This document shows positions 21,089 through 34,048 of a stretch of 34,048 nt of DNA, piece by piece. The notes below the pieces were generated by a model. The model was not told the DNA's origin. It did not search any database and saw only the letters and a program-made list of their open reading frames with translations. A program made the translations under genes and the position numbers. This DNA comes from Frankiales bacterium (GTDB lineage: Bacteria > Actinomycetota > Actinomycetes > Mycobacteriales > SCTD01). Every line of letters starts with the position of its first letter. Positions within the stretch are counted from its first letter, which is position 1. The stretch is taken from positions 1-34,048 of the forward strand of contig JAOPWP010000076.1 in assembly GCA_025965615.1 (NCBI GenBank), read 5' to 3'.

Positions 21089-21904
21089 TCAGAGCAACCC
21101 CTGCCGCCCAAGGCCGCGCGAGATGCTGAGGGCGGCGGTCTGCACGGCCGAGGCAAGCTGGTCCAGCCGCCGGCGCGCCACCGGGACGCTCACCGACAGC
21201 GCGGCGACCGGGCGGTTGGAGGCGTCCAGGATGGGGGCGGCGACGCATCCCAGGCCGATCGCCGCCTCCTCCCGGTCGAAGGCCACGCCGCGCTCAGCCA
21301 CCACGGCGAGCTCGCGCCGGAGCGCGGCCGCCGACACGATCGTGTGCCGGGTGCGGGGCAGCAGCGGACCGGTCAGCACCTCCTCGACCAGCTCCGCCGT
21401 GGAGAAGGCGAGGATCGCCTTGCCCAGGCCGGTGCAGTACAGCGGCATGCTCGATCCGGTCCGGCCCAGCTGGGTGACCTGCCGGTGCCCACGGATCTTC
21501 TCGACGTAGAGCACCTCATGCCGCATCCGGACGCCGAGATGCACGGTCTCCTGGCTGGCCTGGTACAGGTCCTGCATGAACGGCACGGCGACCTCCCGAA
21601 GCTCCAGGCTGAGGGGGGACAGCGAGGCCAGTTCGAAGACCCGCTGGCCGATGCAGTACTCGTGGTTGTCCAGGCTGAGCATCCGGATGCTGCACAGCTC
21701 GGTCAGCAGCCGGTGCGCGGTCGTCTTCGGCAGCCCGCTGCGGCGCACCACCTTGGCCAGCGTGAGGCGCGGGTGGCGGGCGTCGAAGCAGCGCAGCACC
21801 ATGGCGGTGCGGGACAGCACGCCGACGCCGTCGGCGGGCGTACGCGCCTGGGGGACGTGCGCGTCCCGGCCACCGTGCTGCTCCAGCGTCCGTCCTCCGT
21901 TCAC
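21089..21904 (-). CDS. IclR family transcriptional regulator
   Basis: The 271-residue protein has the IclR layout. The winged helix is LSRTAMVLRCFDARHPRLTLAKVVRRSGLPKTTAHRLLTEL, with recognition helix LPKTTAHRLL. The effector domain runs through VPFMQDLYQASQETVHLGVRMRHEVLYVEKI, PLYCTGLGKAILAF, RGVAFDREEAAIGLGCVAAPILD and AALSVSVP. These are the usual ligand-pocket strands. IclR proteins often control aromatic catabolic operons, responding to the substrate or a ring-cleavage product. It is divergent from the transport/catabolic cluster across a 285-base region and is its natural regulator. The GTG at 21904 is the longest start; the ribosome site is only a GGGG run. Confidence 0.9.
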   Translation of the reverse strand: MNGGRTLEQHGGRDAHVPQARTPADGVGVLSRTAMVLRCFDARHPRLTLAKVVRRSGLPKTTAHRLLTELCSIRMLSLDNHEYCIGQRVFELASLSPLSLELREVAVPFMQDLYQASQETVHLGVRMRHEVLYVEKIRGHRQVTQLGRTGSSMPLYCTGLGKAILAFSTAELVEEVLTGPLLPRTRHTIVSAAALRRELAVVAERGVAFDREEAAIGLGCVAAPILDASNRPVAALSVSVPVARRRLDQLASAVQTAALSISRGLGRQGLL

Positions 21905-22189: not shown

Positions 22190-23050
22190 ATGGCCGACGG
22201 GCAGACGCTGGTGACGGTGACCGAGCCGCGACAGGACATGGAGCAGACGACCGGTGCGAGGGCCGCATCGTCGGCCGGGACGCGAACGCGGCGCGCCGTC
22301 CGGCTGCCCCGGGCGTGGGGCTTTCCCGCCCTGGCGGCGACCGTCCTGCTCGTGGTCTGGCAGCTGGCCAGCATGCGCTTTCCCGACTACCTGCTCCCCG
22401 GCGTCGGCGAGACGCTGTCGGCGACCTGGCACCTGGTCCTGGACTTCCCTGACGAGATCGGCCTCACGCTGCTGCGGCTGCTCGGCTCCATCGCCATCGC
22501 CATGTTCGGCGGGTGGGCGATCGGCCTGTTCATGTCGATCCGGCACCTCGGTCCGATCGTCGAGCCGTTCCTGAAGATCGCGAGCGCCATCCCCTTCGTG
22601 TCCTGGGTGCTGCTGGCGGTCCTGTGGGTCGCCAACATCGAGGTCCGCATCCTGTTCGTCGTCGTGGTGCTCGTTCTGCCGGTCTACGCGGTCAACGTCT
22701 ACGAAGGCGTGCGCACCTTCGACCCCGAGCTCGTGCAGGCCGTGCGCCAGTTCGGCCCGGGCCGCTGGCAGTTCGCCCGCTACGTCCTGATCCCCAACTC
22801 GGTCGCCGACGTGATCCTGACGACCAAGTCGATGACCGGGTTCTCGCTGCGCATCACCGTGTTCGCCGAGCTCGTCGGCGCCAGCACCGGCGTCGGCGCG
22901 CTGATGGCCGACGCCCAGTCCAACTTCCGTGTCGACCAGCTGCTCGGACTCACCCTCGTCATGATCGCCTCCACTCTGGTGCTGCTCGCGCTTGTCGGGC
23001 AGGCCGAGCGGCGACTCCTGCGCTGGCGCCCCGAGAGCGCCGTCGGGTAA
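22190..23050 (+). CDS. ABC transporter permease, SsuC/TauC/NrtB type
   Basis: The 286-residue permease belongs to the sulfonate/taurine/nitrate/aromatic-acid importer group. An Arg-rich N-tail precedes the first helix, FPALAATVLLVVWQLASM, then LLPGVGETLSATW, which is the usual SsuC pattern (LP-x-P-x-x-x). At least five membrane helices follow, with the ATPase-contact loop around LVQAVRQFGPGRWQFARYVLIPNSVADV. The start ATG at 22190 follows AGGAG at good spacing, and the frame before it is only open by composition. It heads the plus-strand cluster. Its ATPase partner is the next gene, while the matching binding protein lies seven genes further on. Substrate within this transporter group cannot be told from sequence. 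Confidence 0.86.
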   Translation: MADGQTLVTVTEPRQDMEQTTGARAASSAGTRTRRAVRLPRAWGFPALAATVLLVVWQLASMRFPDYLLPGVGETLSATWHLVLDFPDEIGLTLLRLLGSIAIAMFGGWAIGLFMSIRHLGPIVEPFLKIASAIPFVSWVLLAVLWVANIEVRILFVVVVLVLPVYAVNVYEGVRTFDPELVQAVRQFGPGRWQFARYVLIPNSVADVILTTKSMTGFSLRITVFAELVGASTGVGALMADAQSNFRVDQLLGLTLVMIASTLVLLALVGQAERRLLRWRPESAVG

Positions 23051-23105
23051 CAGCTCGCACCCCGTTCCGGCCGTCCCGTCCTCATCCTGGGAGAGCGATC
23101 CAGCC

Positions 23106-23951
23106 ATGCAGCCACCACAGACCACCCCTCGGACCTCGAGCGCCGACCGCACCCCGTCCCGGACCCCCAACGACACCGATGCGCCGGTCATCGAGGTTGA
23201 GGACGTCTGGTTCCACTACGGCGACACCCTGATCGTCGCCGGCGCCCAGCTGGAGGTCAGGCGGGGCGAGCGGGTCGCCATCCTGGGCAGCACGGGAGCC
23301 GGCAAGTCGACCTTGCTCAACCTGCTCATCGGCACCATCAAGCCCGACCGGGGCCGGGTGACGATCACCGGCCTGCCGCCGTACGACCGTCCGAAGGAGA
23401 TCTTCGGGCGCTTCTCCATCGCGTTCCAGTCGCCGCGGCTGCTGCCCTGGCGGACCGCGCTGGACAATGTCGCGCTGGGCCTGGAGATCCTGGGCAGCTC
23501 GCGCGCCGAGAGCCGCGAGGTGGCCCGCACCTGGCTCACCCACGTGGGCCTGGCCGACGCGCTGCACCTCTACCCCACCCAGCTGTCCGGCGGCATGAAG
23601 CAGCGGGCCTCGCTGGCCCGCGCGTTCTCCGTCCGGCCCGAGGTGCTCTTCCTCGACGAGGCCTTCTCCGCCCTGGACGAGGTGACCGCCGAACGGCTGC
23701 GCCAGGACTTCCACGCGCTGTCCACCCAGGAGAACCAGACCGCGGTGATCGTGACGCACAACATCGACGAAGCGCTGTTCCTGGCCGACCGCATCCTCGT
23801 GCTGGGCCGGCCCGGGCGGGTCATCGGGGAGGTCTCGGCCAAGACCGTGGACTGGAAGAACGATCCGGCTCTCGCCGCAGGTGTCCGCGCCGAGATCGTC
23901 GAGCTCATGCGCCGTCCGCAGGCGGCTGCCCAGCAGCGAGTGGAGGCCTGA
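23106..23951 (+). CDS. ABC transporter ATP-binding protein, SsuB/TauB type
   Basis: The 281-residue ATPase powers the permease encoded just before it. Walker A is GSTGAGKST (residues 61-69). The Q-loop is AFQSPRLLPWRTALDNV, a form typical of SsuB/TauB/NrtD. The signature is LSGGMKQRASLARAF, Walker B VLFLDEAFSALDE and the switch region VIVTHNIDEALFLADRI. About 28 Thr/Pro/Ser-rich residues precede the domain. The ATG at 23106 has GGGAGAG upstream at longish spacing. The stop is one base from the ferredoxin gene start, so transport and catabolic genes form one transcript. Confidence 0.88.
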   Translation: MQPPQTTPRTSSADRTPSRTPNDTDAPVIEVEDVWFHYGDTLIVAGAQLEVRRGERVAILGSTGAGKSTLLNLLIGTIKPDRGRVTITGLPPYDRPKEIFGRFSIAFQSPRLLPWRTALDNVALGLEILGSSRAESREVARTWLTHVGLADALHLYPTQLSGGMKQRASLARAFSVRPEVLFLDEAFSALDEVTAERLRQDFHALSTQENQTAVIVTHNIDEALFLADRILVLGRPGRVIGEVSAKTVDWKNDPALAAGVRAEIVELMRRPQAAAQQRVEA

Positions 23952-23952
23952 G

Positions 23953-24183
23953 GTGGTCACCCAGCAGGTCCCGACCGGCGACGAGGTCGTCGTCGACCGC
24001 CAGCTGTGCCGCGGCCACGCCGTGTGCGAGCTGCTGGCGCCGGACTTCTTCGTGGTCGACGACGAGGGCCTGGCCGCCGTGGTCCGCCAGCCCGAGAACG
24101 ACGCCGACCGGGCTGCCGTCGATGACGCCTCCGACAACTGCCCGGCTGCGGCCATCCGTCGGGCAACCGGGCGGGCCACCTAG
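23953..24183 (+). CDS. [3Fe-4S]-type small ferredoxin
   Basis: The 76-residue protein shows the pattern C-x2-H-x2-C (Cys19, His22, Cys25 in LCRGHAVCE) and a distant NCPAAAI (Cys63). This is the actinobacterial single-cluster ferredoxin in which the second Cys of a 4Fe ferredoxin is replaced by His. Relatives serve cytochromes P450 and Rieske oxygenases of actinomycetes. Here no P450 is present, and the Rieske oxygenase and ferredoxin reductase genes follow, so it probably carries electrons between them. The start is GTG at 23953, with GGAGG upstream inside the end of the ATPase gene. Confidence 0.87.
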   Translation: MVTQQVPTGDEVVVDRQLCRGHAVCELLAPDFFVVDDEGLAAVVRQPENDADRAAVDDASDNCPAAAIRRATGRAT

Positions 24184-24184
24184 C

Positions 24185-25609
24185 GTGTCCGCTCCCACGC
24201 CCCGCGCCGACGGGGAGCACACCCGTCGTCTGGCGCAGTGGGTGTCGGATGTGGACATCGCCCAGCTGCCGGCCGGCGTCGTCGCCAGCTACTCGTCGCT
24301 GCTGCTCGACACGCTGTCCTGTGCCCTCGCCGGCAGTGGCACCGACCTGGGCGACCAGCTCGCGACCGTGGCCACGGCGCTCGGTCCCGGTTCGTGCACG
24401 CTGGTCGGCCGAACGGCCACCGCCTCGCCACTGGGCGCGGCGCTGTACAACGGCGGCGTCAGCCACAGCCTGAACTGGAGCTCGCTCGGGCCCGGCACCG
24501 CGCACATCGGAGCGGTCCTGCTCGGCGGCGTGCTCGCCGCGGTCGAGCAGCAGCCGGCGGTCAGCGGTGCCCGGCTGCTCGCGGCCCTGGTGGCCGCCGG
24601 TGAGACGACCACCCGTCTGAGCGAGGCGGTGGCGGCCACCCCCGAGGGCCCGCGGCTCAAGCACCGCTGGCTGCTCGGACAGCTGCTCGGCTACGTGGGC
24701 GTCGCCGCCGGCTGCGCCCGCCTGCTCGAGCTCGACGCCGACCGCACGCACTCGGCGATCGGGCTGGCCGTGATGCAGGCCTCGGGCACCATGGAGGTGC
24801 TGCGCCTGGGTGACGTGCCGGCCAAGAGTGCCTACGCCGCCTTCCCCAACGCCGCCGGCCTGACCGCCGCGCTGCTCGCGCAGGCCGGCGTCGACGCCGG
24901 ATTCCAGGCGCTGGAGGGTGAGCACGGACTGTTCGGCCTGCAGCTGGGCATCGCGCCACCGGCCGCCAGCTGGTTCGACTCGACCGAGATCCACTCCGCC
25001 GCAGCGCATATCAAGCGCTGGCCGGTGAGCATCAACGTCGAGCGCTTCCTGGCCGCGGCAGCCCAGGACGGCCTCGCGGGTGTGGCGGCCGCCCGCCCGG
25101 TGGCGTCGGTGCTGGTGACCACCGGCGAGGCCGACCGGCCCTGGCTGGAGCCGGCGGCGGCGCGGCAGCGACCGGCCAACCCTTCCTCTGCGGCCAACAG
25201 CATCTCCTTCTCGCTGGCCGGCCTGCTCGTGCACGGTGACGTGCCCGCCGGCCGGCCGGGCGAGGCCCGACTGGCTGACGAGGCGGTGCGCGCGCTGGCC
25301 GCGTGCACCACGCACGTCATCGCCCCCGACAGCCGCCGGCTCCTGACCGTCCGCTTCACCGATGGCCAGGAGCGCACCGTCGAGGTCGCCGACGATCCCG
25401 GCAGCGCAGCCAGCGGCCCCGACGCCGTCCGGGACAAGCTCCGGCGCTGCGCGGCGCTGGCGGCCCAGGCCCCCTCGGCCCAGGCCGTCGACGAGCTCGT
25501 CGACGGCGTGCGCACTCTGCCCGACCTGGCCGACGTCCGACCCCTGCTCGCCCTCGTCCGGGGCACGTCCCCGGGCCACAACCGCCTCCAGGAGGAGTCC
25601 CACCGATGA
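24185..25609 (+). CDS. MmgE/PrpD family protein with altered active-site motif
   Basis: The 474-residue protein has the length and helical N-domain of the MmgE/PrpD family (2-methylcitrate dehydratase, cis-aconitate decarboxylase, iminodisuccinate epimerase). Recognisable blocks are DTLSCALAG, NGGVSHSLNW, ALVAAGETTTRLSEA and the QASG...AKSAYAAFPNAAGLTAALLAQ segment. The usual H-x2-DFDDT motif is replaced by HSLNWSSL. The key Asp position is Asn97, and the Thr four residues later is Leu101. His107, His160 and Lys214 can be aligned with the other active-site positions. The normal hydratase or decarboxylase chemistry may therefore be changed. The GTG start lies one base after the ferredoxin stop, and the end overlaps the Rieske alpha start (ATGA). 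Confidence 0.82.
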   Translation: MSAPTPRADGEHTRRLAQWVSDVDIAQLPAGVVASYSSLLLDTLSCALAGSGTDLGDQLATVATALGPGSCTLVGRTATASPLGAALYNGGVSHSLNWSSLGPGTAHIGAVLLGGVLAAVEQQPAVSGARLLAALVAAGETTTRLSEAVAATPEGPRLKHRWLLGQLLGYVGVAAGCARLLELDADRTHSAIGLAVMQASGTMEVLRLGDVPAKSAYAAFPNAAGLTAALLAQAGVDAGFQALEGEHGLFGLQLGIAPPAASWFDSTEIHSAAAHIKRWPVSINVERFLAAAAQDGLAGVAAARPVASVLVTTGEADRPWLEPAAARQRPANPSSAANSISFSLAGLLVHGDVPAGRPGEARLADEAVRALAACTTHVIAPDSRRLLTVRFTDGQERTVEVADDPGSAASGPDAVRDKLRRCAALAAQAPSAQAVDELVDGVRTLPDLADVRPLLALVRGTSPGHNRLQEESHR

Positions 25610-26922
25610 CCGACCAGCTCTCCCCACCTCCGGCCCCGCAGCAGCTCGACGGCCGGTGGGTCGACCAGGACCCGGCCGCCGACCGCTACCGCGTGCGCAC
25701 CAGCGCGTACTCCGATCCGGCCGTCTTCGACCTGGAGATGAGCCGCATCTTCGAGTCCACGTGGGTCTACGTCTGCCACGAGTCCGAGGTGGCCAAGGCC
25801 GGGGACTTCAAGAGCACCTGGCTCGGTCGCCAGCCCATCATCGCCGCTCGCGACCGGACCGGCGCCATCAACATGATGCTCAACGTGTGCCGGCACCGCG
25901 GCAACGCGGTCTGCCGCACCGAGACGGGCAACACGGTCATCTTCCAGTGCCCGTACCACGGCTGGAGCTACGGCCTGGACGGCAAGCTCGCCGGCATCAC
26001 CGACCGCAACCGCTATCCCAGCGACCTGGCGAAGCAGATCGGCGGGCTCGTGCGGGTGCCGCGCGTGGAGTCCTACCGCGGCCTGGTCTTCGCCTCGCTC
26101 AACCCCGACGTGCCCGAGCTGCGCGAGCATCTCGGTCCGGTGCTGCCCTACATCGACCACTGGGCGGACGGCTCGATCGGCGCCGAGTACGTCGCGCGCA
26201 CGCCGCACAAGTTCGCCTACCCGGGCAACTGGAAGTTCCAGGCCGAGAACAGCCTCGACGGCTACCACGGCCGGTTCGTCCACGAGTCGGGGTTCGCGGC
26301 GCTGGCCCACGAGCCGGGCGGCACCGAGGTGGCGGCGGACAAGCACGAGTTCATGGCGTTCGACAGCAAGGCCGGCCTGACCCGCGGCATCCCCGGCGGG
26401 CACGGCACCCTGGAGAGCCCGGGCAGCGGCCTGAACCGCCAGATCGGCGTGGCCAAGGTCTCCGACCGCTCCTTCGACGACTACCACGCCGCGCTCAGCG
26501 AGGCCTACGGCGCCGAGCGGGCCCTGTCCCTGCTCGGCTCGCGGCACGTGCTCGTCTTCCCGAACCTGGTGCTGATGGACCTCAACATCCGGACCATCAC
26601 CCCGATCTCGGTGGACCGCACGCTGGTGCACTCGTTCTTCGCCGAGGCGCAGGGCGTGCCGGCGCACGTCAACAACGAGCGGCTGCACGACCTGCAGGTG
26701 CGCCTGGGAACGACCGGGTTCGTCGGCCTGGACGACCTGGAGATGTTCGGCGGAAACCAGACCGGCGTCCACGCCCGCGGGATGGAGTGGATCGAGCTCA
26801 GCCGCGGCCTGCCCACCGAGCAGGTCAACGAGGCCGGCGAGCACATCGGCGCGGCCTCCGACGAGACCCCGTTCCGGGCCTTCTGGACACAGTGGGCCGC
26901 CCTTCTCGAGAGCGAGGTCTGA
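25606..26922 (+). CDS. Rieske ring-hydroxylating oxygenase, alpha subunit
   Basis: The 438-residue catalytic subunit carries the Rieske [2Fe-2S] site as CRH (Cys95, His97) and CPYH (Cys115, His118). The mononuclear iron site follows at ENSLDGYHGRFVH (Asp218, His221, His226), with a later acidic ligand near GLDDLEMF (Asp376/377). All expected metal ligands are present, so the protein should be active. The family adds O2 to aromatic rings, usually giving cis-dihydrodiols or removing a substituent. Beta subunit, ferredoxin and reductase genes are adjacent, giving a four-component system. The start ATG overlaps the MmgE/PrpD stop. The substrate-pocket sequence does not let me name the aromatic compound. 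Confidence 0.93.
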   Translation: MTDQLSPPPAPQQLDGRWVDQDPAADRYRVRTSAYSDPAVFDLEMSRIFESTWVYVCHESEVAKAGDFKSTWLGRQPIIAARDRTGAINMMLNVCRHRGNAVCRTETGNTVIFQCPYHGWSYGLDGKLAGITDRNRYPSDLAKQIGGLVRVPRVESYRGLVFASLNPDVPELREHLGPVLPYIDHWADGSIGAEYVARTPHKFAYPGNWKFQAENSLDGYHGRFVHESGFAALAHEPGGTEVAADKHEFMAFDSKAGLTRGIPGGHGTLESPGSGLNRQIGVAKVSDRSFDDYHAALSEAYGAERALSLLGSRHVLVFPNLVLMDLNIRTITPISVDRTLVHSFFAEAQGVPAHVNNERLHDLQVRLGTTGFVGLDDLEMFGGNQTGVHARGMEWIELSRGLPTEQVNEAGEHIGAASDETPFRAFWTQWAALLESEV

Positions 26923-26924
26923 GC

Positions 26925-27434
26925 ATGCTGAGCACGGCGCTGGATCCCACCTACGCGCAGGTCGCCACGCTGCTGCACCGCGAGGCCCGGCTGCTCGACA
27001 ACCTCGAGCTCGACCAGTGGCTGGAGCTGTTCCTGCCCCACGGCGTGTACTGCTCCCCGCTCGGGGCGGCCTGCGTCGACGGCGAGCCGGTCATCCTGCT
27101 CGACGACGACCGGCTGCGGCGGCAGCGCGTGTTCCGGCTGCTGCAGACGCCGGCCTATGCGCAGCGCCCGGCTTCGCGCACCGTGCGTCAGGTGAGCAAC
27201 GTCGAGGTCGAGCTGCAGGCCGACGGGCAGGTCGCCGTCGAGTGCGTCGTGGTCATCCACGAGGTGCGGGTCGGCGACGAGCGGCAGTACGGGCTCGGCA
27301 CGCTCCGGGTCCTGCCGACGCGCACCCGCTACCTGCTGTCCCCGGGCCCGGACGGCGCCCTGCTCATCGCGCGCAAGGAGGTGGTCCTGCTGATGCGGGA
27401 GGCACCTCTGGAGAACCTGTCCATCCTGCTCTAG
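26925..27434 (+). CDS. Rieske ring-hydroxylating oxygenase, beta subunit
   Basis: The 169-residue small subunit has the NTF2/SnoaL-like cone fold. Characteristic parts are the N-terminal helix (LLHREARLLDNLELDQWLELFLPHGVYCSP), the middle DDDRLRRQRVFRLLQTPAYAQRPASRTVRQVSNVEV and the closing strand LLIARKEVVLL. The sequence R-x3-R...SR-x-x-R-x-VSNV is conserved in beta subunits. It stabilises the alpha3beta3 hexamer and has no cofactor. The ATG starts two bases after the alpha stop. After its stop a perfect 8-bp hairpin precedes the reductase gene. Confidence 0.9.
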   Translation: MLSTALDPTYAQVATLLHREARLLDNLELDQWLELFLPHGVYCSPLGAACVDGEPVILLDDDRLRRQRVFRLLQTPAYAQRPASRTVRQVSNVEVELQADGQVAVECVVVIHEVRVGDERQYGLGTLRVLPTRTRYLLSPGPDGALLIARKEVVLLMREAPLENLSILL

Positions 27435-27493: not shown

Positions 27494-28729
27494 ATGGCGA
27501 CATCGAGCGGACGAACAGTCGTCGTCGGCGCTTCCCTGGCCGGGGTGCGGGCGGCCGAGGAGCTGCGACGGCAGGGCTACGACGGGGACCTGGTCCTGGT
27601 CGGTGCGGAGCGGCAGTATCCGCCGACGGACCGGCCTCCGCTGTCGAAGGAGCTGCTGTCCGGCGCCTTCACCGTGGAGCAGGCGCAACTGCGGGTGCGG
27701 CCCTTCGAGGTGACAGCACTGCTGGGCCGGGTCGCGACCCGGCTCGATCTGCAGGCGCGTGCGGTCGAGCTGGACGACGAGTCGCTCGTCCCGTTCGACG
27801 ACCTGGTCATCGCGACGGGGACGACGCCCCGTCTGTTGCCGGTGAGCGAGAACACCGGCGGCATCCACGTTCTGCGCACGGCGGAGGACTGCCTCGCCAT
27901 CCGCGCCCTGCTGCCCGCGGTCCGGCGAGTGGTGGTGGTCGGCGCCGGTTTCGTCGGATGCGAGGTGGCCTCGACCCTGCGCTCGCTCGGCGTGCAGGTG
28001 TCGCTCGTCGAGCCGATGGACACCCCGCTCAAGCGCGCGTTCGGGGCCGGTGCCGGCACCCTGGTGGCCGACCTGCACCGGCGCAACGGCGTGGACCTGC
28101 GGCTGGGTGTGTCCGTCACCGGCGTCGTGGAGGAGCACGGGTCCGCCGGTGGCCCCACCGTCCGGGCGATCAGGCTCTCGGACGGCACCGAGCTCGAGTG
28201 CCAGCTGCTCGTGGTCGCCATCGGCGTCGTGCCGTCCACCGACTGGCTCGAAGGATCGGGCCTGCTGCTGGGCGACGGGGTCGTGTGCGACATGACCTGC
28301 ACCGCACTGGATCTCGACGGCGTGCCGGTGCCCGGCGTGGTCGCGGCCGGGGACGTGGCGCGCTGGCACCACCCGGTCTACCAGCGCACGGTCCGCGTCG
28401 AGCACTGGACCAACGCGATGGAGCAGGGCCGGCACGCCGCCCGGACGCTGCGCGCCGGGCCCGGCGGCGGCGAGCCCTACGCGGCGGTGCCGTTCTTCTG
28501 GTCCAACCAGTACGAGCACCTGATCCAGTTCGTCGGCCTGCCCGGGCCCGAGGAGACCGAGGTGCAGGCGCCCGACGGCTCCCGGGTGCTCACCTACGCC
28601 GAGCAGGGGCGGCTCACCGGCGCCTTCGTCGTGGACGGCGCCCGGCTGGTCCGGAGCTACCGTGAGCAGATCCTGGCTGCCAACGCCGACCGCCCCGCCA
28701 CCGCAGCGGCCGCGCCGACCCGTGCCTGA
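27494..28729 (+). CDS. NAD(P)H-dependent ferredoxin reductase (glutathione-reductase type FAD protein)
   Basis: The 411-residue flavoprotein has two Rossmann motifs: VVVGASLAGVRAAEEL near residue 9 for FAD, and VVVVGAGFVGCEVASTL near residue 146 for NAD(P)H. FAD motifs also appear at FDDLVIATGTTPR and GVVAAGDVARW, followed by the C-terminal reductase domain with PFFWSNQYEHLIQFVG. This group includes BphA4/PuxA-type reductases that feed ferredoxins of Rieske oxygenases and P450s. ERQYPPTDRPPLSKELL is typical of the group. The ATG at 27494 follows GAGGAAGG closely. The end overlaps the hydrolase start by 8 bases. Confidence 0.92.
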   Translation: MATSSGRTVVVGASLAGVRAAEELRRQGYDGDLVLVGAERQYPPTDRPPLSKELLSGAFTVEQAQLRVRPFEVTALLGRVATRLDLQARAVELDDESLVPFDDLVIATGTTPRLLPVSENTGGIHVLRTAEDCLAIRALLPAVRRVVVVGAGFVGCEVASTLRSLGVQVSLVEPMDTPLKRAFGAGAGTLVADLHRRNGVDLRLGVSVTGVVEEHGSAGGPTVRAIRLSDGTELECQLLVVAIGVVPSTDWLEGSGLLLGDGVVCDMTCTALDLDGVPVPGVVAAGDVARWHHPVYQRTVRVEHWTNAMEQGRHAARTLRAGPGGGEPYAAVPFFWSNQYEHLIQFVGLPGPEETEVQAPDGSRVLTYAEQGRLTGAFVVDGARLVRSYREQILAANADRPATAAAAPTRA

Positions 28730-29579
28730 CGCGGACCGGCCGCCGGCCGCGTCGCTGGTCCGGACAGCCGACGGTCACGGCTATTCGGTGCGCGCGGTCG
28801 GCGAGGGCCGGCCCGCGATCTTCCTTCACGGGGGCGGCCCGGGCTGCACGGCCGAGTCCGACTTCGGCGCCACCGCGCGGCTGCTCGCACCTCATCGGCG
28901 CTGCCTGCTGGTCGACATGCTGCAGTACGGCGCGTCGGACAAGTGTGCGGTCACCGGCCCCCGCTGGTCGTTCCACGCCGCGAGCCTGGCGGGCCTGCTC
29001 GACGCGCTCGGGTTGGACGACGCCGACCTCGTCTGCGGGTCCTGGGGCGGGTCGGCCGCGCTGGCACTGGCGGCGGCCTTTCCGTCGCGGGTGCGTTCGC
29101 TCGTGGTGACCGGCAGCATGCCGCTGCTCGCGGGGCCGGTGCCGGCCGCCGCGGCAGGGCTCGCCAACCGGGTGCGCGAAAACTACTACGGTGGAACCGG
29201 TCCGACGCTGGCCAAGATGCGGGACCTGCTGGCCGAGGTGGAGTGGGCCGACGCCTCGCGGCTGCCGGCCGAGACCGTCCGGCTGCGCCACGAGCAGAGC
29301 CTGGACGCCAGCGAGGTCGCGCTGACAACCGGTGCCGGCACCCCTCGCGGCGAGCCGGAGGACCTGGGCGAGCAGCTGACGCGGCTCACCGCGCCGGTGC
29401 TGTATCTGTGGGGTTCCTCCGACGTCTTCGTGCCGCCGCACTATGCACTCGAGCTCACCGGCAGGACGCCGGGAGCCTCCCTGCACGTCATGGCCGGCAC
29501 GGCGCACCACCCCTACGAGGAGCGTCCGGCCGCCTTTGCGGCCATCGCCTCGGCGTTTCTGGACAGCGCCTCGGCCTAG
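28722..29579 (+). CDS. Alpha/beta hydrolase (meta-cleavage product hydrolase or iminopeptidase-like)
   Basis: The 285-residue protein has the alpha/beta hydrolase fold. FLHGGGPGCTA (residues 34-43) gives the oxyanion loop, as in meta-cleavage hydrolases such as XylF/BphD. The nucleophile is Ser107 in CGSWGGS. The acid is Asp234 in WGSSDVFVP, and the catalytic His is in GTAHHPYEE (262/263). The complete triad argues for an active enzyme. The substrate is probably a ring-fission acid, an ester or an amide in the same pathway. The GTG start lies inside the reductase stop region (8-base overlap). It could process the product of the extradiol enzyme encoded downstream, but a second hydrolase competes for that job. 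Confidence 0.83.
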   Translation: MPDADRPPAASLVRTADGHGYSVRAVGEGRPAIFLHGGGPGCTAESDFGATARLLAPHRRCLLVDMLQYGASDKCAVTGPRWSFHAASLAGLLDALGLDDADLVCGSWGGSAALALAAAFPSRVRSLVVTGSMPLLAGPVPAAAAGLANRVRENYYGGTGPTLAKMRDLLAEVEWADASRLPAETVRLRHEQSLDASEVALTTGAGTPRGEPEDLGEQLTRLTAPVLYLWGSSDVFVPPHYALELTGRTPGASLHVMAGTAHHPYEERPAAFAAIASAFLDSASA

Positions 29580-29706: not shown

Positions 29707-30744
29707 ATGAAGGTGTTCGGCAAGCGGAACGAGAACGGCCGGAGGCGGCCCCGTCTGCACAGCCTGGTCGGTCTCGCGGCACTGGCGCTGGTCGCCACGG
29801 CATGCGGCTCGTCCGGCGATGACCAGGTCGCCCCGGCCTCCGGCAAGCCCGCGGCGCAGGCGCCCTACGCGCTGTCCTTCGGCGACATCAGCGGAGGCAC
29901 CGGCGACATCACCTGGGCCTACATCGAGAAGAACGCGTTGCAGGCCAAGTACGGCCTCGCGCTCGAACGCCGCGAGACCAGCGCCATTCCCACCCTCTAC
30001 AGCGACTTCGCGGCGAACCGGTACCCGGTCACGATCGGCAGCCCGGACGCGTTCGCCGCGCAGGCCGCCAAGGGCCTGCCGGTGCGCATGCTCAGCGTCA
30101 ACGGCAAGGATGCCGTCTTCCTGCTTGCCAAGAAGGACCTCAAGGTGCCGCAGGACCTGGCGGGCGCCACCATCGCCGGCGCGACGGCGGCCGGCTCCTT
30201 CAAGACGCTGGCTGCTGTCCTGGCCGACACGACCGGCCTGGACATCCAGAAGCAGTCCAAGATCGTCCCGGCGCAGAACAACATGCAGGCCATCACGCAG
30301 GTCATCGCCGGCAGCGCTGACGCCGCCGTCGCGTGGGAGGCCGATGTGTCGACCGCGCTGGCGAAGTACCCGGAGCTGAAGGTCATCTACTCCAACGTCG
30401 CGCAGTTCGAGGGCAAGTTCGGCGTCCCCAGCTTCACGACGTCGTACGCCTACCGCACCGACAGCAACATCCCGCAGGACAAGCTCCAGGCGTTCTTCGA
30501 GCTGTACCGCGAGGCGCAGACCAAGCTCCAGGAGGACCCGCAGATGGCGGACAAGCTTGCGCAGGAGGTGCTCAAGAGCGCGCCGGGCGTCTACGCGTCG
30601 GCGTTCGAGTCCGACCGCCTGGCCTTCGCGCCGGCGCTGGTGAAGGGCAAGGTGGCCGAGGCCCTCAAGAAGCAGATCTTGGTCTCCCAGAACTACGGGA
30701 TCGTGCCGACGTCCGTGCCGGACAGCTTCTACGGCACCGACTGA
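29707..30744 (+). CDS. ABC transporter substrate-binding lipoprotein, SsuA/TauA/NMT1 type
   Basis: The 345-residue protein starts with an Arg-rich head, a hydrophobic stretch (LVGLAALALVATAC) and a lipobox-like VATAC whose Cys is the lipid site. After a Ser/Gly linker the mature part begins ALSFGDISGGTG. Blocks such as YSDFAANRYPVTIGSPDAFAAQAAKGLPVRML, VPQDLAGATIAGATAAG and VIAGSADAAVAWEADVS are typical of the group that binds sulfonates, nitrate, thiamine precursors and aromatic acids. It should pair with the SsuC/SsuB-type genes at the cluster start, although these lie seven genes away. It could also serve an importer elsewhere. The stop is followed by a strong hairpin. Confidence 0.86.
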   Translation: MKVFGKRNENGRRRPRLHSLVGLAALALVATACGSSGDDQVAPASGKPAAQAPYALSFGDISGGTGDITWAYIEKNALQAKYGLALERRETSAIPTLYSDFAANRYPVTIGSPDAFAAQAAKGLPVRMLSVNGKDAVFLLAKKDLKVPQDLAGATIAGATAAGSFKTLAAVLADTTGLDIQKQSKIVPAQNNMQAITQVIAGSADAAVAWEADVSTALAKYPELKVIYSNVAQFEGKFGVPSFTTSYAYRTDSNIPQDKLQAFFELYREAQTKLQEDPQMADKLAQEVLKSAPGVYASAFESDRLAFAPALVKGKVAEALKKQILVSQNYGIVPTSVPDSFYGTD

Positions 30745-30806: not shown

Positions 30807-30842
30807 ATGGCCATCTGGCGGAACGAGAGGACACAACTGTGA
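30807..30842 (+). CDS. Possible 11-codon leader peptide before the extradiol gene
   Basis: The frame MAIWRNERTQL starts at an ATG within the palindrome GATGGCCATC (30806-30815). Its TGA overlaps the GTG start of the extradiol dioxygenase gene (GTGA). Such an overlap would couple translation of the two frames. There is no good ribosome site for the leader, so this may be chance. Confidence 0.2.
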   Translation: MAIWRNERTQL

Positions 30843-31792
30843 GCACGGTCGTGCTGGGTGTCGGAGCTTCACACAGCACCCTGATGAACACGCACTGGCA
30901 CGAGGTCGCCGACGACGCCGGCGCGCTGCGCTTCCGCACCGGCCTGGAGCAGGCGCAGGAGCTGGTCGCGGCCAGCCGACCCGACGTGGTCGTGGTGCTC
31001 GGCTCGAACCACTTCCGCGGCATGTTCCTGGATCTCATGCCCGCCTGCACCGTCGGTGTCGGCGAGGTACTCGGCGCCGGTGAGGCCGGCACACCCGAGG
31101 GCAAGCTGCCGACCGACCCCGTGCTGGCGCGGCACGTCCTGACCCGGCTCGGCGAGGACTTCGACCCGGCTTTCTCGTTGCGCCTCACCGTGGACCACGG
31201 CATCACGCACAGCCTGCAGCACCTGGTTCCCGGGCTGGACGTGCCGGTCCTGCCGATCGTGTTCAACATGTTCGCCCCGCCGCTGCCCTCGCTGCGCCGC
31301 TGCCACGCGCTGGGCGAAGCACTCGGGCGCGCGCTGCGAGAGGACGGCGAGGACAAGCGCATCGTCGTCATCGCCTCCGGTGGTCTGTCGCACCGCCTGC
31401 CGTGGCCCAAGTGGTTCGACGCGCTGTCCGACGACGACCGCTTCCTGGTCGAGGCCTGGCTCAACGGCCGCCACTCCTGGAAGCAGTACGAGGTCCGCCG
31501 GCGCGAGATCGTGCGCGCCGCACAGGCCGATATCAACACCGACTTCGACCTCGCGTTCCTCGAGATGATCGAGCGCGGCGACGTCTGTGCGGCGCTGTCC
31601 TGGACGAGCGAGGACGTCGAGCAGCGTGCCGGCAACGGCGCCCAGGAGATCCGGGCCTGGCTGGCGATGGCCGCGGCCGTCGGGCCCTTCCAGGGCCGCA
31701 CGCTGGCCTACGCCGCTATCCCCCAGTGGCTGACCGGAATGGCCGTGTCCGTCCTTGAACCGCAGACCACCCCTGACCCCCCGAGAGGCTGA
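30839..31792 (+). CDS. Class III extradiol ring-cleavage dioxygenase, MhpB/LigB-like
   Basis: The 317-residue protein belongs to the LigB fold of Fe(II) extradiol dioxygenases and is closest in pattern to MhpB (2,3-dihydroxyphenylpropionate 1,2-dioxygenase). Likely iron ligands are His12 (GASHSTLM) and His58 (LGSNHFRG), plus a C-terminal Glu near FLEMIERG. The acid-base pair is Asp119-His120 (VDHG) and His185 (GGLSH), matching the essential Asp114/His115 and His179 of MhpB. The ending IPQWLTGM also matches MhpB. It should open a catechol-type ring by meta cleavage. The GTG start has GAGAGG at good spacing. The next gene begins one base after its stop. Confidence 0.9.
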   Translation: MSTVVLGVGASHSTLMNTHWHEVADDAGALRFRTGLEQAQELVAASRPDVVVVLGSNHFRGMFLDLMPACTVGVGEVLGAGEAGTPEGKLPTDPVLARHVLTRLGEDFDPAFSLRLTVDHGITHSLQHLVPGLDVPVLPIVFNMFAPPLPSLRRCHALGEALGRALREDGEDKRIVVIASGGLSHRLPWPKWFDALSDDDRFLVEAWLNGRHSWKQYEVRRREIVRAAQADINTDFDLAFLEMIERGDVCAALSWTSEDVEQRAGNGAQEIRAWLAMAAAVGPFQGRTLAYAAIPQWLTGMAVSVLEPQTTPDPPRG

Positions 31793-31793
31793 C

Positions 31794-32645
31794 ATGACCA
31801 TCTGGACCGACCTCATCGAGACCCCGCACGCCCTGCGCTACGTCGACGCCGGCGGCGTGCGCACCCGTTCGCTGACGGCCGGACAGGGCGACGCTGTCGT
31901 CTTCCTGCACGGCACCAGCGGGCATCTCGAGGCCTTCGTGCGCAACCTGCCGGCGCACGCCGGGCATTTTGCCTGCCACGCCATCGACATGCTGGGCCAC
32001 GGCTACACCGACGGCAGCGGCGAGCCGTACCGCATCCCGGCCTACGTCGACCACGTGCTCGCCTACCTCGACGCCGTGGGCGTGGAGCGGGCGCACTTCG
32101 TCGGTGAGTCCCTCGGCGGCTGGGTGGCCGGTCGCCTGGCCGCGGACCACCCGGACCGGGTGGGCAAGCTGACGCTCGTCGCGCCCGGCGGCACGGTGGC
32201 CAACCCGGCCGTGATGGACCGCATCAAGACCAGCACGCGCAAGGCCGTCGAGAACGACGACGTCGCCCTGACCCGGGCCCGCCTGGAGCTGCTGATGCAC
32301 GACCCGGCTCAGGACGTCTCCGAGGAGCTGGTGCAGGTGCGCCACGCCATCTACCACCGCCCGTCCTTCGTCGCCGGACTCGGCGACCTGCTGTGCCTGC
32401 AGGAGATGGACAACCGCGTTCCCGACCTGCTCAGCGAGGAGCAGATGGGCCGGATCGTCGCGCCCACGCTGGTCGTGTGGGGGGCGCAGAACCCCTTCGG
32501 TGACGTGCCCGAGGCCGGCCGCATCCGCGACAGCATCGCGGGGGCCCGGCTGGAGGTCTTCGGAGAGTGCGGTCACTGGCCGCAGCACGAGCACAGCGCC
32601 CGGTTCGACGAGCTCAACATCGGCTTCCTGCTCGGCGAGCAGTGA
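31794..32645 (+). CDS. Alpha/beta hydrolase, MhpC/HsaD-like C-C hydrolase
   Basis: The 283-residue protein resembles hydrolases that cleave the C-C bond of meta ring-fission products. The oxyanion loop is VVFLHGTSGHLEAF and the nucleophile is Ser106 in VGESLGGW. The catalytic His261 lies in the diagnostic CGHWPQHEH. The acid position, usually Asp in WG-x-x-D, reads WGAQNPF, placing Asn233 there, with a possible substitute Asp237 a few residues on. The triad is therefore atypical. Its place directly after the extradiol dioxygenase fits the role of hydrolysing that product. The ATG follows GAGAGG, and the stop overlaps the next start (GTGA). Confidence 0.86.
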   Translation: MTIWTDLIETPHALRYVDAGGVRTRSLTAGQGDAVVFLHGTSGHLEAFVRNLPAHAGHFACHAIDMLGHGYTDGSGEPYRIPAYVDHVLAYLDAVGVERAHFVGESLGGWVAGRLAADHPDRVGKLTLVAPGGTVANPAVMDRIKTSTRKAVENDDVALTRARLELLMHDPAQDVSEELVQVRHAIYHRPSFVAGLGDLLCLQEMDNRVPDLLSEEQMGRIVAPTLVVWGAQNPFGDVPEAGRIRDSIAGARLEVFGECGHWPQHEHSARFDELNIGFLLGEQ

Positions 32646-33667
32646 GCATGCGGGTCGGAGTCCGCCTCCCGCCCTGCGCTCCGGTCGGTGAGGTCGCCGC
32701 TGCGGCGGTGACCGCGGAGCGGCTGGGGTTCGACGAGGTCTGGGTTCCGGACTCGCAGCTGCTCTGGCGCGATCCCTTCGTGACCCTCGCCGCGGTGGCA
32801 CAGGCCACGACCGGCATCGGGCTGGGAACCGCGGTCACGAACGTCGTGACGCGGCACCCGGCGGTGCTCGCCTCGGCGGTCCGGACCGTCGGCGAGCTGG
32901 CCGAGGGGCGGTTCGTGCTCGGCGTGGGAGTGGGCAACAGTTCCGTAGAGCCGGTGGGTCTGCGACCGAGCACGCAGGCGGAGCTGCGCGAGCGCCTGGC
33001 GGTGGTGCGGGCCCTGCTGGCGGGCGAGGATGTCGACTTCGGCCCGGTGACCAGCTCGCTGCGGGACCCGGGAACGGCGCCGCCGGTGCTCATGGCCGCC
33101 AGCGGCCCGCGCAACCTGCGGCTGGCCGGCGAGATCGCCGACGGCGCGATCCTGCTCAGCGGCATCTCGCCGGTGACGCTGGCGAGCAGCCGCGAGCGGG
33201 TGGCAGAGGGCGCGCTCGCCGCGGGCCGGCAGCTGGCCGACCTGCAGCTGGTGGTCTCCACCTTCGCGCACATCACCGACGACCTGGAGAAGGACGCGCG
33301 CCAGCTCAAGCCCATCTGCGCCGGCATCGCACAGAAGGGCGGGGGTCCGGCGCTGGCGCTGGCCGGCATCTCGGTCCAGGTGCCGGAGCGCGTCGAGGGT
33401 CTCTACCCCGACCTCGTCCACGCCGAGGACTGGGAACTCGCCGTGGAGCGGTGCGGGGAGTGGATCAGCGACGCGGACGTGCTCCGCTTCGCCCAGCAGT
33501 TCTGCCTGTTCGGCACCGCCGAGCAGGTCCGGGCGCGGCTGGCCGAGGTCGAGCAGGCCGGAGCGACGAGCGTGTTCCTGCAGCACGTCGGGTCCTACTC
33601 GCTCCCCTACGAGCTCATGGACTCCTTCGCCGGCGTCATCACGTCCGGGTGGGCCACCGAGCGATGA
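32642..33667 (+). CDS. Luciferase-like (LLM class) flavin/F420-dependent oxidoreductase
   Basis: The protein is about 340 residues with a TIM-barrel LLM fold. The start MRVGVRLPPCAPVGEVAAAAVTAERLGFDEVWVPDS is typical, followed by GIGLGTAVTNVVTRHPAVLASAVRTVGELAEGRFVLGVGVGNSS and LMAASGPRNLRLAGEIADGAILLSG. These features are like F420-dependent methylene-tetrahydromethanopterin-reductase-type members. FMN-dependent SsuD monooxygenases share the fold, so cofactor and reaction are open. I use the GTG at 32642, which overlaps the hydrolase stop (GTGA). An ATG two codons later (32648) is an equally possible start. It may reduce or oxidise a pathway intermediate, or desulfonate a substrate. Confidence 0.85.
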   Translation: MSMRVGVRLPPCAPVGEVAAAAVTAERLGFDEVWVPDSQLLWRDPFVTLAAVAQATTGIGLGTAVTNVVTRHPAVLASAVRTVGELAEGRFVLGVGVGNSSVEPVGLRPSTQAELRERLAVVRALLAGEDVDFGPVTSSLRDPGTAPPVLMAASGPRNLRLAGEIADGAILLSGISPVTLASSRERVAEGALAAGRQLADLQLVVSTFAHITDDLEKDARQLKPICAGIAQKGGGPALALAGISVQVPERVEGLYPDLVHAEDWELAVERCGEWISDADVLRFAQQFCLFGTAEQVRARLAEVEQAGATSVFLQHVGSYSLPYELMDSFAGVITSGWATER

Positions 33668-34048
33668 GCGGGGGCGGCACGGTCGTGGCGCAGCTCGCCG
33701 AGCGCGGCGCCGCCGCGGCGGGGCAGGCTGACGCCGCTGACCGGCAGCTCGCGGCCCGTCACCTGCTCGACGCGCTGGGCTGCCTGGCGGTCGGCGTGAC
33801 GCATCCGGTGTCGGCCCGGCTGCGCGCTTTGCGTGCGGTCGACGGCGGCGGCGGGTCGACCCGCAGCCCGGGGCTGCCGGCGTGCTCGGTGGCGGACGCG
33901 GTGAGCCACGAGGCCGTGGCCATGCACGTCGACGAGTTCGACGCGCTGCACGTGCCGGCAGCGGTGGCGCCGGCCTGCGTCGTCGTGCCGACGGCGCTGG
34001 TGCTGGCCGACCAGCTCGACGCCTCCGGCGCCCAGCTGCTCGACGCCG
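33664..34048 (+). CDS. MmgE/PrpD family protein 2, N-terminal part (cut by window edge)
   Basis: The first 128 codons are present and the gene continues past the right edge. The start ATG overlaps the previous stop (ATGA). The segment LAARHLLDALGCLAVGVTHPVSARLRAL matches the family N-domain. The region AVAMHVDEFDALHVPAAVAPACVVVPTALVLADQ aligns without gaps to the usual AHAYDFDDCH...HPGAAVVPAAL block. In it the first key Asp is Glu91, and the catalytic His of HP is Ala102. This is a divergent paralogue of the MmgE/PrpD gene nine genes upstream. Whether it is catalytic cannot be known from this part. Confidence 0.75.
   Translation, partial: MSGGGTVVAQLAERGAAAAGQADAADRQLAARHLLDALGCLAVGVTHPVSARLRALRAVDGGGGSTRSPGLPACSVADAVSHEAVAMHVDEFDALHVPAAVAPACVVVPTALVLADQLDASGAQLLDA

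Follow-up and report, generated by a model that had tools for sequence, protein, structure and literature searches.

The MmgE/PrpD superfamily counted about 50,000 homologues in a 2025 report, most of them uncharacterised, and from six conserved residues a single mechanism and a single substrate backbone have been predicted for all of its members (PMC12290011). In the numbering of the 2HP0 structure, residues H85, D88, H99, H150, K198 and K266 coordinate a shared 1,4-dicarboxylate. The catalytic histidine (H99 in 2HP0, His103 in ACOD1) is proposed to exchange the C2 proton across the family, with the enolate stabilised by one or both lysines, and H85, D88, H150, K198 and K266 are proposed to hold both carboxylates of the substrate (PMC12290011). 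In human ACOD1, His103 lies close to the substrate C2 and Asp93 hydrogen-bonds Lys272; each protomer is described as having its catalytic site between its two domains (PMC12259180). Mutation of His103 to alanine abolishes ACOD1 activity, and His159Ala lowers it (PMC11814083). Family members are dimers (PMC7347537). No paper on MmgE/PrpD proteins with meta-cleavage or dioxygenase clusters was found among the titles and abstracts of an open-access library.

The window analysed here, a 34,048-nucleotide stretch of DNA from a Frankiales bacterium, encodes two MmgE/PrpD paralogues, PrpD1 and PrpD2, within the following set of genes.

21089..21904, reverse strand: IclR-family regulator
22250..23951, forward strand: ABC permease and ATPase, SsuCB/TauCB-like (starts approximate)
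23953..24183, forward strand: single-cluster ferredoxin of 76 aa (Fer4_13/Fer4_15), directly upstream of PrpD1
24185..25609, forward strand: PrpD1, MmgE/PrpD-family protein of 474 aa, with a GTG start directly 3' of the ferredoxin stop
25606..26922, forward strand: Rieske dioxygenase alpha subunit (closest PDB entry a 3-phenylpropionate/cinnamate dioxygenase)
26925..27434, forward strand: ring-hydroxylating dioxygenase beta subunit
27494..28729, forward strand: ferredoxin reductase (HcaD/AndAa-like)
28662..29579, forward strand: alpha/beta hydrolase 1 (start uncertain)
29707..30744, forward strand: NMT1-like substrate-binding protein of an ABC transporter
30839..31792, forward strand: LigB-type extradiol ring-cleavage dioxygenase (MhpB-like)
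31794..32645, forward strand: meta-cleavage-product hydrolase (HsaD/BphD-like)
32648..33667, forward strand: LLM-class oxidoreductase of the F420-dependent type (Mer-like)
33664..34048, forward strand: PrpD2, second MmgE/PrpD paralogue, cut by the contig end (motif HVDEFDALH; the His103 position is not His)

By their predicted products, the genes around PrpD1 are a catabolic operon for aromatic meta-cleavage. No cis-dihydrodiol dehydrogenase was recognised between 25606 and 34048 on the forward strand, in what is otherwise a complete dioxygenase/meta-cleavage operon, and the dioxygenase may therefore yield a catechol directly or rely on a different enzyme. The ferredoxin (23953-24183, forward strand), which carries CxxxxxC and CP motifs and lies between the ABC ATPase and PrpD1, is the likely electron donor of the dioxygenase. 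The stop codon of PrpD1 overlaps the ATG of the dioxygenase alpha gene (ATGA), and this overlap, together with the ferredoxin immediately upstream, suggests that PrpD1 is co-expressed with the ring-hydroxylating dioxygenase. The nearest matches of the luciferase-like gene at 32648-33667 (forward strand) are F420-dependent enzymes (Mer, TIGR03842), and the meta-cleavage pathway may therefore include a redox step that depends on F420.

The frame of PrpD1 is the coding frame, with strong codon bias and a GC3 of 0.92. An alternative ATG lies upstream at 24122, but the GTG at 24185 is the better start because the ATG would overlap the ferredoxin gene. PrpD1 belongs to the MmgE/PrpD superfamily by both homology and fold. 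The Pfam domain MmgE_PrpD_N matches residues 14-251 with an E-value of 2.2e-38 (132.3 bits against a cut-off of 32.1), MmgE_PrpD_C is found weakly, in the correct order and region (27.8 bits against a cut-off of 32.1, E-value 2.6e-6), and the sequence matches in the PDB are ACOD1/IRG1 and iminodisuccinate (IDS) epimerase. An AlphaFold2 model built from an alignment of 46 relatives has a mean pLDDT of 90.6 and a pTM of 0.91, with values of 91-92 over residues 91-110. The best Foldseek matches of this model are ACOD1 structures, followed by IDS epimerase and PrpD/MmgE. VIA-align, spanning 422-432 residues, gave Z-scores of 42.9 for ACOD1, 42.1 for IDS epimerase and 34-36 for 2-methylcitrate dehydratases. 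These whole-chain matches (Z 34-43) recover the two-domain fold, with a large helical domain and a lid domain, and the modelled protein looks intact rather than degenerate.

The site itself departs from the family pattern. The features concerned are these.

24464..24505, forward strand: altered motif H94-SLNWSSL-GPGTA-H107, with N97, S99 and S100 at ACOD1 Asp93, Asp95 and Asp96
24671..24673, forward strand: Leu163, at the ACOD1 His159 position
24824..24826, forward strand: Lys214, equivalent of ACOD1 Lys207, kept
25013..25015, forward strand: Lys277, equivalent of ACOD1 Lys272, kept, in a column invariant in our census
25040..25042, forward strand: Glu286, at the ACOD1 His281 position, a candidate relocated acid

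Relatives carry H-x2-D-[FY]-D-D, where PrpD1 has HSLNWSSL at residues 94-101 followed by H107. In phmmer comparisons with human and mouse ACOD1 and Bacillus subtilis IRG1, HSLNWSS aligned on HSMDFDD, and the same pairing came out of alignments by MAFFT and HMM that covered 69, 47 and 139 relatives. Paired in this way, ACOD1 His90, Asp93, Phe94, Asp95, Asp96, Thr97 and His103 correspond to H94, N97, W98, S99, S100, L101 and H107, and His159, Lys207, Lys272, His277, His281 and Lys421 to L163, K214, K277, S282, E286 and K418. H107 is thus the catalytic His103 of ACOD1. None of the three D-x-D-D acids survives in PrpD1, and of the six family residues it retains four (the equivalents of His90, His103 and both lysines, Lys207 and Lys272), having lost Asp93 and His159. 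The initial annotation had placed HSLNWSSL at the H-x2-DFDDT site, with Asn for Asp93 and the His103 position kept, and the translation and all of these alignments bear this out. It overlooked the more conserved Asp95 and Asp96 (both Ser), His159 (Leu163) and His281 (Glu286).

A structural alignment placing another Asp at the Asp93 position would have overturned that reading. H94 and H107, both in columns invariant in a 47-sequence alignment, fix the motif in place, and between D57 and D184 the translation contains no further Asp, which means that no local realignment could restore the acid site. In the folded protein, an acid from elsewhere in the chain, for instance Glu286, could still come close to it. 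The motif codons (AAC TGG AGC TCG) are several base changes from any D-F/Y-D-D, and a single sequencing error therefore cannot explain them.

The rarity of this combination was gauged among 139 relatives, with redundancy removed at 90% identity. This census is enriched for PrpD1 relatives and actinobacteria, so that its proportions describe the sample and not the whole superfamily. ACOD1 position 93 is Asp in 109 sequences and Glu in 25 (acidic in 134/137, with three other residues and two gaps), position 95 is Asp in 127/137, and position 96 is Asp or Glu in 123/137; PrpD1 has N, S and S. Position 103 is His in 135/137, position 207 Lys or Arg in 131/139 and position 272 Lys in 137/137, and here PrpD1 has H, K and K. 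His occupies position 281 in 122/137, against Glu in PrpD1. Three sequences lack an acid at 93 with Asp95 kept, ten lack Asp at 95 (two of these have Glu) with Asp93 kept, and PrpD1 alone in the census lacks the acid at both. In the 47-sequence alignment the Asp columns at PrpD1 positions 97 and 99 are likewise nearly invariant. Conservation reaches at least 85% in 31 columns; PrpD1 deviates in eight of these, including those of Asp95, Asp96 and His281, against two for the median relative. The change of Thr97 to Leu (L101), which the initial annotation also stressed, is real but carries little diagnostic weight, Thr being present in only 56/137 relatives. Members of the nearest subfamily are altered at His159 and Thr97 as well, with Asp93 and Asp95 kept, so only part of the remodelling in PrpD1 is special.

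Substitutions at single acid positions were observed elsewhere in the sample. Phe, Ala or Ser stands at the Asp93 position, with Asp95 and Asp96 kept, in L012, in L008 (the same gene as in L017) and in L155 (632-2749, reverse strand). A conserved MmgE/PrpD group of one actinobacterial genus (L179, 9367-10785, reverse strand; L186; L187) has QDFSDL, with Ser at Asp95 and Asp93 kept.

Compared with the described systems, PrpD1 is closest in structure to the itaconate-making cis-aconitate decarboxylase ACOD1/IRG1 (PDB 6R6U, 6R6T, 7BR9), sharing the fold over the whole chain and the equivalents of His90, His103, Lys207, Lys272 and Lys421, but identity is about 21%, Asp93/Asp95/Asp96 are replaced by N/S/S, Thr97 and His159 by Leu, His277 by Ser and His281 by Glu, and PrpD1 stands in an aromatic operon. 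With IDS epimerase (PDB 2HP0) it shares the fold and the equivalents of H85, H99, K198 and K266, whereas those of D88 and H150 are Asn and Leu. The (S)-(R)-methylsuccinate isomerase of itaconate clusters (PMC12290011) is likewise a catabolic-operon member with a His base and two lysines, but its Glu91 and His152 are not kept in PrpD1, and its context is one of itaconate/CoA genes rather than ring cleavage. The 2-methylcitrate dehydratases PrpD/MmgE (PDB 5MUX, 6S62, 5MVI, 1SZQ) share the superfamily fold, yet the acid motif is absent from PrpD1, which scored 20 bits against the NCBIfam equivalog PrpD_hiGCgrampos (NF042438), where 950 are required. Among the top-scoring relatives is an uncharacterised Rhizobium/Paraburkholderia/Pseudomonas group with the motif HxLDFD[DSN]QTPWGAH (L113-L115, L119 and relatives). 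It shares with PrpD1 a loop one residue shorter before His103 and the W162 and WP motifs, but keeps Asp93 and Asp95, has Arg at 207 and is only about 26-29% identical. Judged from these alignments, the six-residue site common to the characterised functional classes is not present in PrpD1.

We consider it about an even bet (probability roughly 0.5) that PrpD1 is an active, re-tuned His/Lys proton-transfer enzyme acting on an upper-pathway acid other than a plain 1,4-dicarboxylate. With four of the six residues kept, proton transfer would survive and the binding of one carboxylate would be altered. His107 would still move a proton at the carbon next to a carboxylate, Lys214 and Lys277 would stabilise the enolate, and the half of the pocket that holds the second carboxylate (the Asp93 and His159 side) would be neutralised and more hydrophobic. 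If that half-pocket is indeed neutralised, the substrate is probably an upper-pathway acid, either aromatic-derived or a monocarboxylate. The reaction is likely an isomerisation or epimerisation, a dehydration or a decarboxylation. The suggestion in the initial annotation of new chemistry goes further than the data allow: the proposed His base and the enolate-stabilising lysines are all kept, and a changed substrate is therefore likelier than changed chemistry. We count against the active-enzyme reading that MmgE_PrpD_C falls below its cut-off, that PrpD1 is absent from related LigB clusters and that no orthologue was found against which selection on the motif could be gauged.

PrpD1 might instead be an ordinary 1,4-dicarboxylate enzyme in which Asn97 would still hydrogen-bond Lys277 and the missing negative charge would come from Glu286, a substitution for a conserved His close to the active-site segment. 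Otherwise normal relatives do vary at position 93 (Glu in 25, and Ala, Phe or Ser in three) and at position 95 (Ser, Glu, Asn, Met, His). Among the relatives, however, none is without both acids, and PrpD1 lacks His159 as well, which leaves this alternative rather unlikely. A non-catalytic role, also raised by the initial annotation, would make PrpD1 a paralogue serving as a scaffold, a ligand-binding regulator or a stabilising subunit of the dioxygenase system, as its loss of conserved acids, its co-translation with the dioxygenase alpha subunit and its absence from related clusters might suggest. Pseudoenzymes are expected to lose the base, but PrpD1 retains it along with both lysines, in a complete and well-predicted fold and within the dioxygenase gene set, and we regard such a role as unlikely.

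A further alternative involves PrpD2, whose gene runs off the contig. The only other contig of the source genome with an MmgE/PrpD C-terminal piece, C96, begins on its reverse strand inside an MmgE/PrpD gene (L112), followed by genes that we take from their sequences to be a 2-keto-4-pentenoate hydratase, an acylating acetaldehyde dehydrogenase and a 4-hydroxy-2-oxovalerate aldolase. Each of the three has a match in the related LigB clusters. C96 is probably the rest of the operon, including the C-terminal part of PrpD2; the ends of C115 and C96 share no sequence overlap, and the join across the contig gap is inferred. Through LigB orthologues (53-74% identity), related clusters were located in six further genomes. 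A PrpD2 gene lies next to or near an F420-type LLM gene in four genomes, that of the window, G977, G042 (with PrpD2 on contig C101 and LigB on C102) and G016. The PrpD2 proteins (a clade including L112, L229, L236 and L242) share H-[LV]-D-E-[FL]-D-[AP]-[LI]-H, have no His at the His103 position, carry a GHY with His replacing Lys207, and keep Lys272 invariantly. The upper oxygenases of these clusters differ, being homotrimeric Rieske enzymes in G977 and G042 and an FAD hydroxylase in G016. No PrpD1 orthologue was found in the six genomes with related LigB clusters, and therefore PrpD2 goes with the core meta pathway, which does not need PrpD1, and PrpD1 goes with its own dioxygenase.

Since two site-divergent paralogues with complementary losses sit in one operon and family members are dimeric (PMC7347537), PrpD1 and PrpD2 could in principle form a heteromer with complementary sites, the first giving His103/Lys207 and the second the acids. 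The ACOD1 site, however, is described as being within each protomer (PMC12259180), and PrpD2 orthologues occur in three other clusters in whose genomes no PrpD1 orthologue was found; we think this arrangement improbable.

A search of about 1,270 actinobacterial genomes at the level of relatives, class, phylum, family and order gave no orthologue of PrpD1; the best matches had 28-39% identity, and the NWSS motif was not found among those whose motifs were inspected. Scoring in the large genome samples was limited to about four first-look candidates in each genome, which may let weak matches escape but should not hide a close orthologue. None was found in 23 other genomes of the same family or among the 53 relatives returned by a search with a narrower alignment, and a single-protein scan of genome contigs gave no relatives. 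In related dioxygenase and LigB loci on plasmids, no MmgE/PrpD gene stood in the same arrangement. The best order-level match (L179, in G1003) was rejected as an orthologue, having QDFSDL (Ser at Asp95, Asp93 kept) and, as its recognised neighbours, SDR and AMP-ligase genes. A FastTree grouping of PrpD1 with other divergent sequences, on a long branch with support 0.76, was judged to be long-branch attraction. That PrpD1 is a relic or an artefact, either a decaying acquired gene or part of a chimeric contig, is very improbable: the genome is a draft of 282 contigs with 3.5% contamination and no orthologue was found in the 23 other same-family genomes, but the 474-aa frame and the operon junctions are intact, the codon bias is strong, the fold is confident, and a same-family genome (G016) carries a related LigB/LLM/PrpD2 cluster.

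PrpD1 and PrpD2 are two clear exceptions, in one operon, to the six-residue prediction (PMC12290011), and their pathway context suggests candidate substrates, which makes that prediction directly testable. Should PrpD1 be active without the acid, Asp93 sets the substrate rather than the chemistry; should it be inactive, the acid is essential. Tentatively, one operon may hold two MmgE/PrpD enzymes, each re-engineered independently, that depart from the supposedly universal site and would be the first members acting on ring-derived compounds other than 1,4-dicarboxylates, PrpD1 having lost the acid and kept the His and lysines, and PrpD2, which occurs in four clusters together with a meta-cleavage pathway and an oxidoreductase of the F420 type, having kept the acids and lost the catalytic His, with His in place of Lys207. 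Separately, a different actinobacterial MmgE/PrpD group (LDFDDTHAGGLVH; L076, L077, L081, L082, L083, L087) lies repeatedly within a few kb of an LLM gene, a proximity hinting at a wider MmgE/PrpD-LLM partnership.
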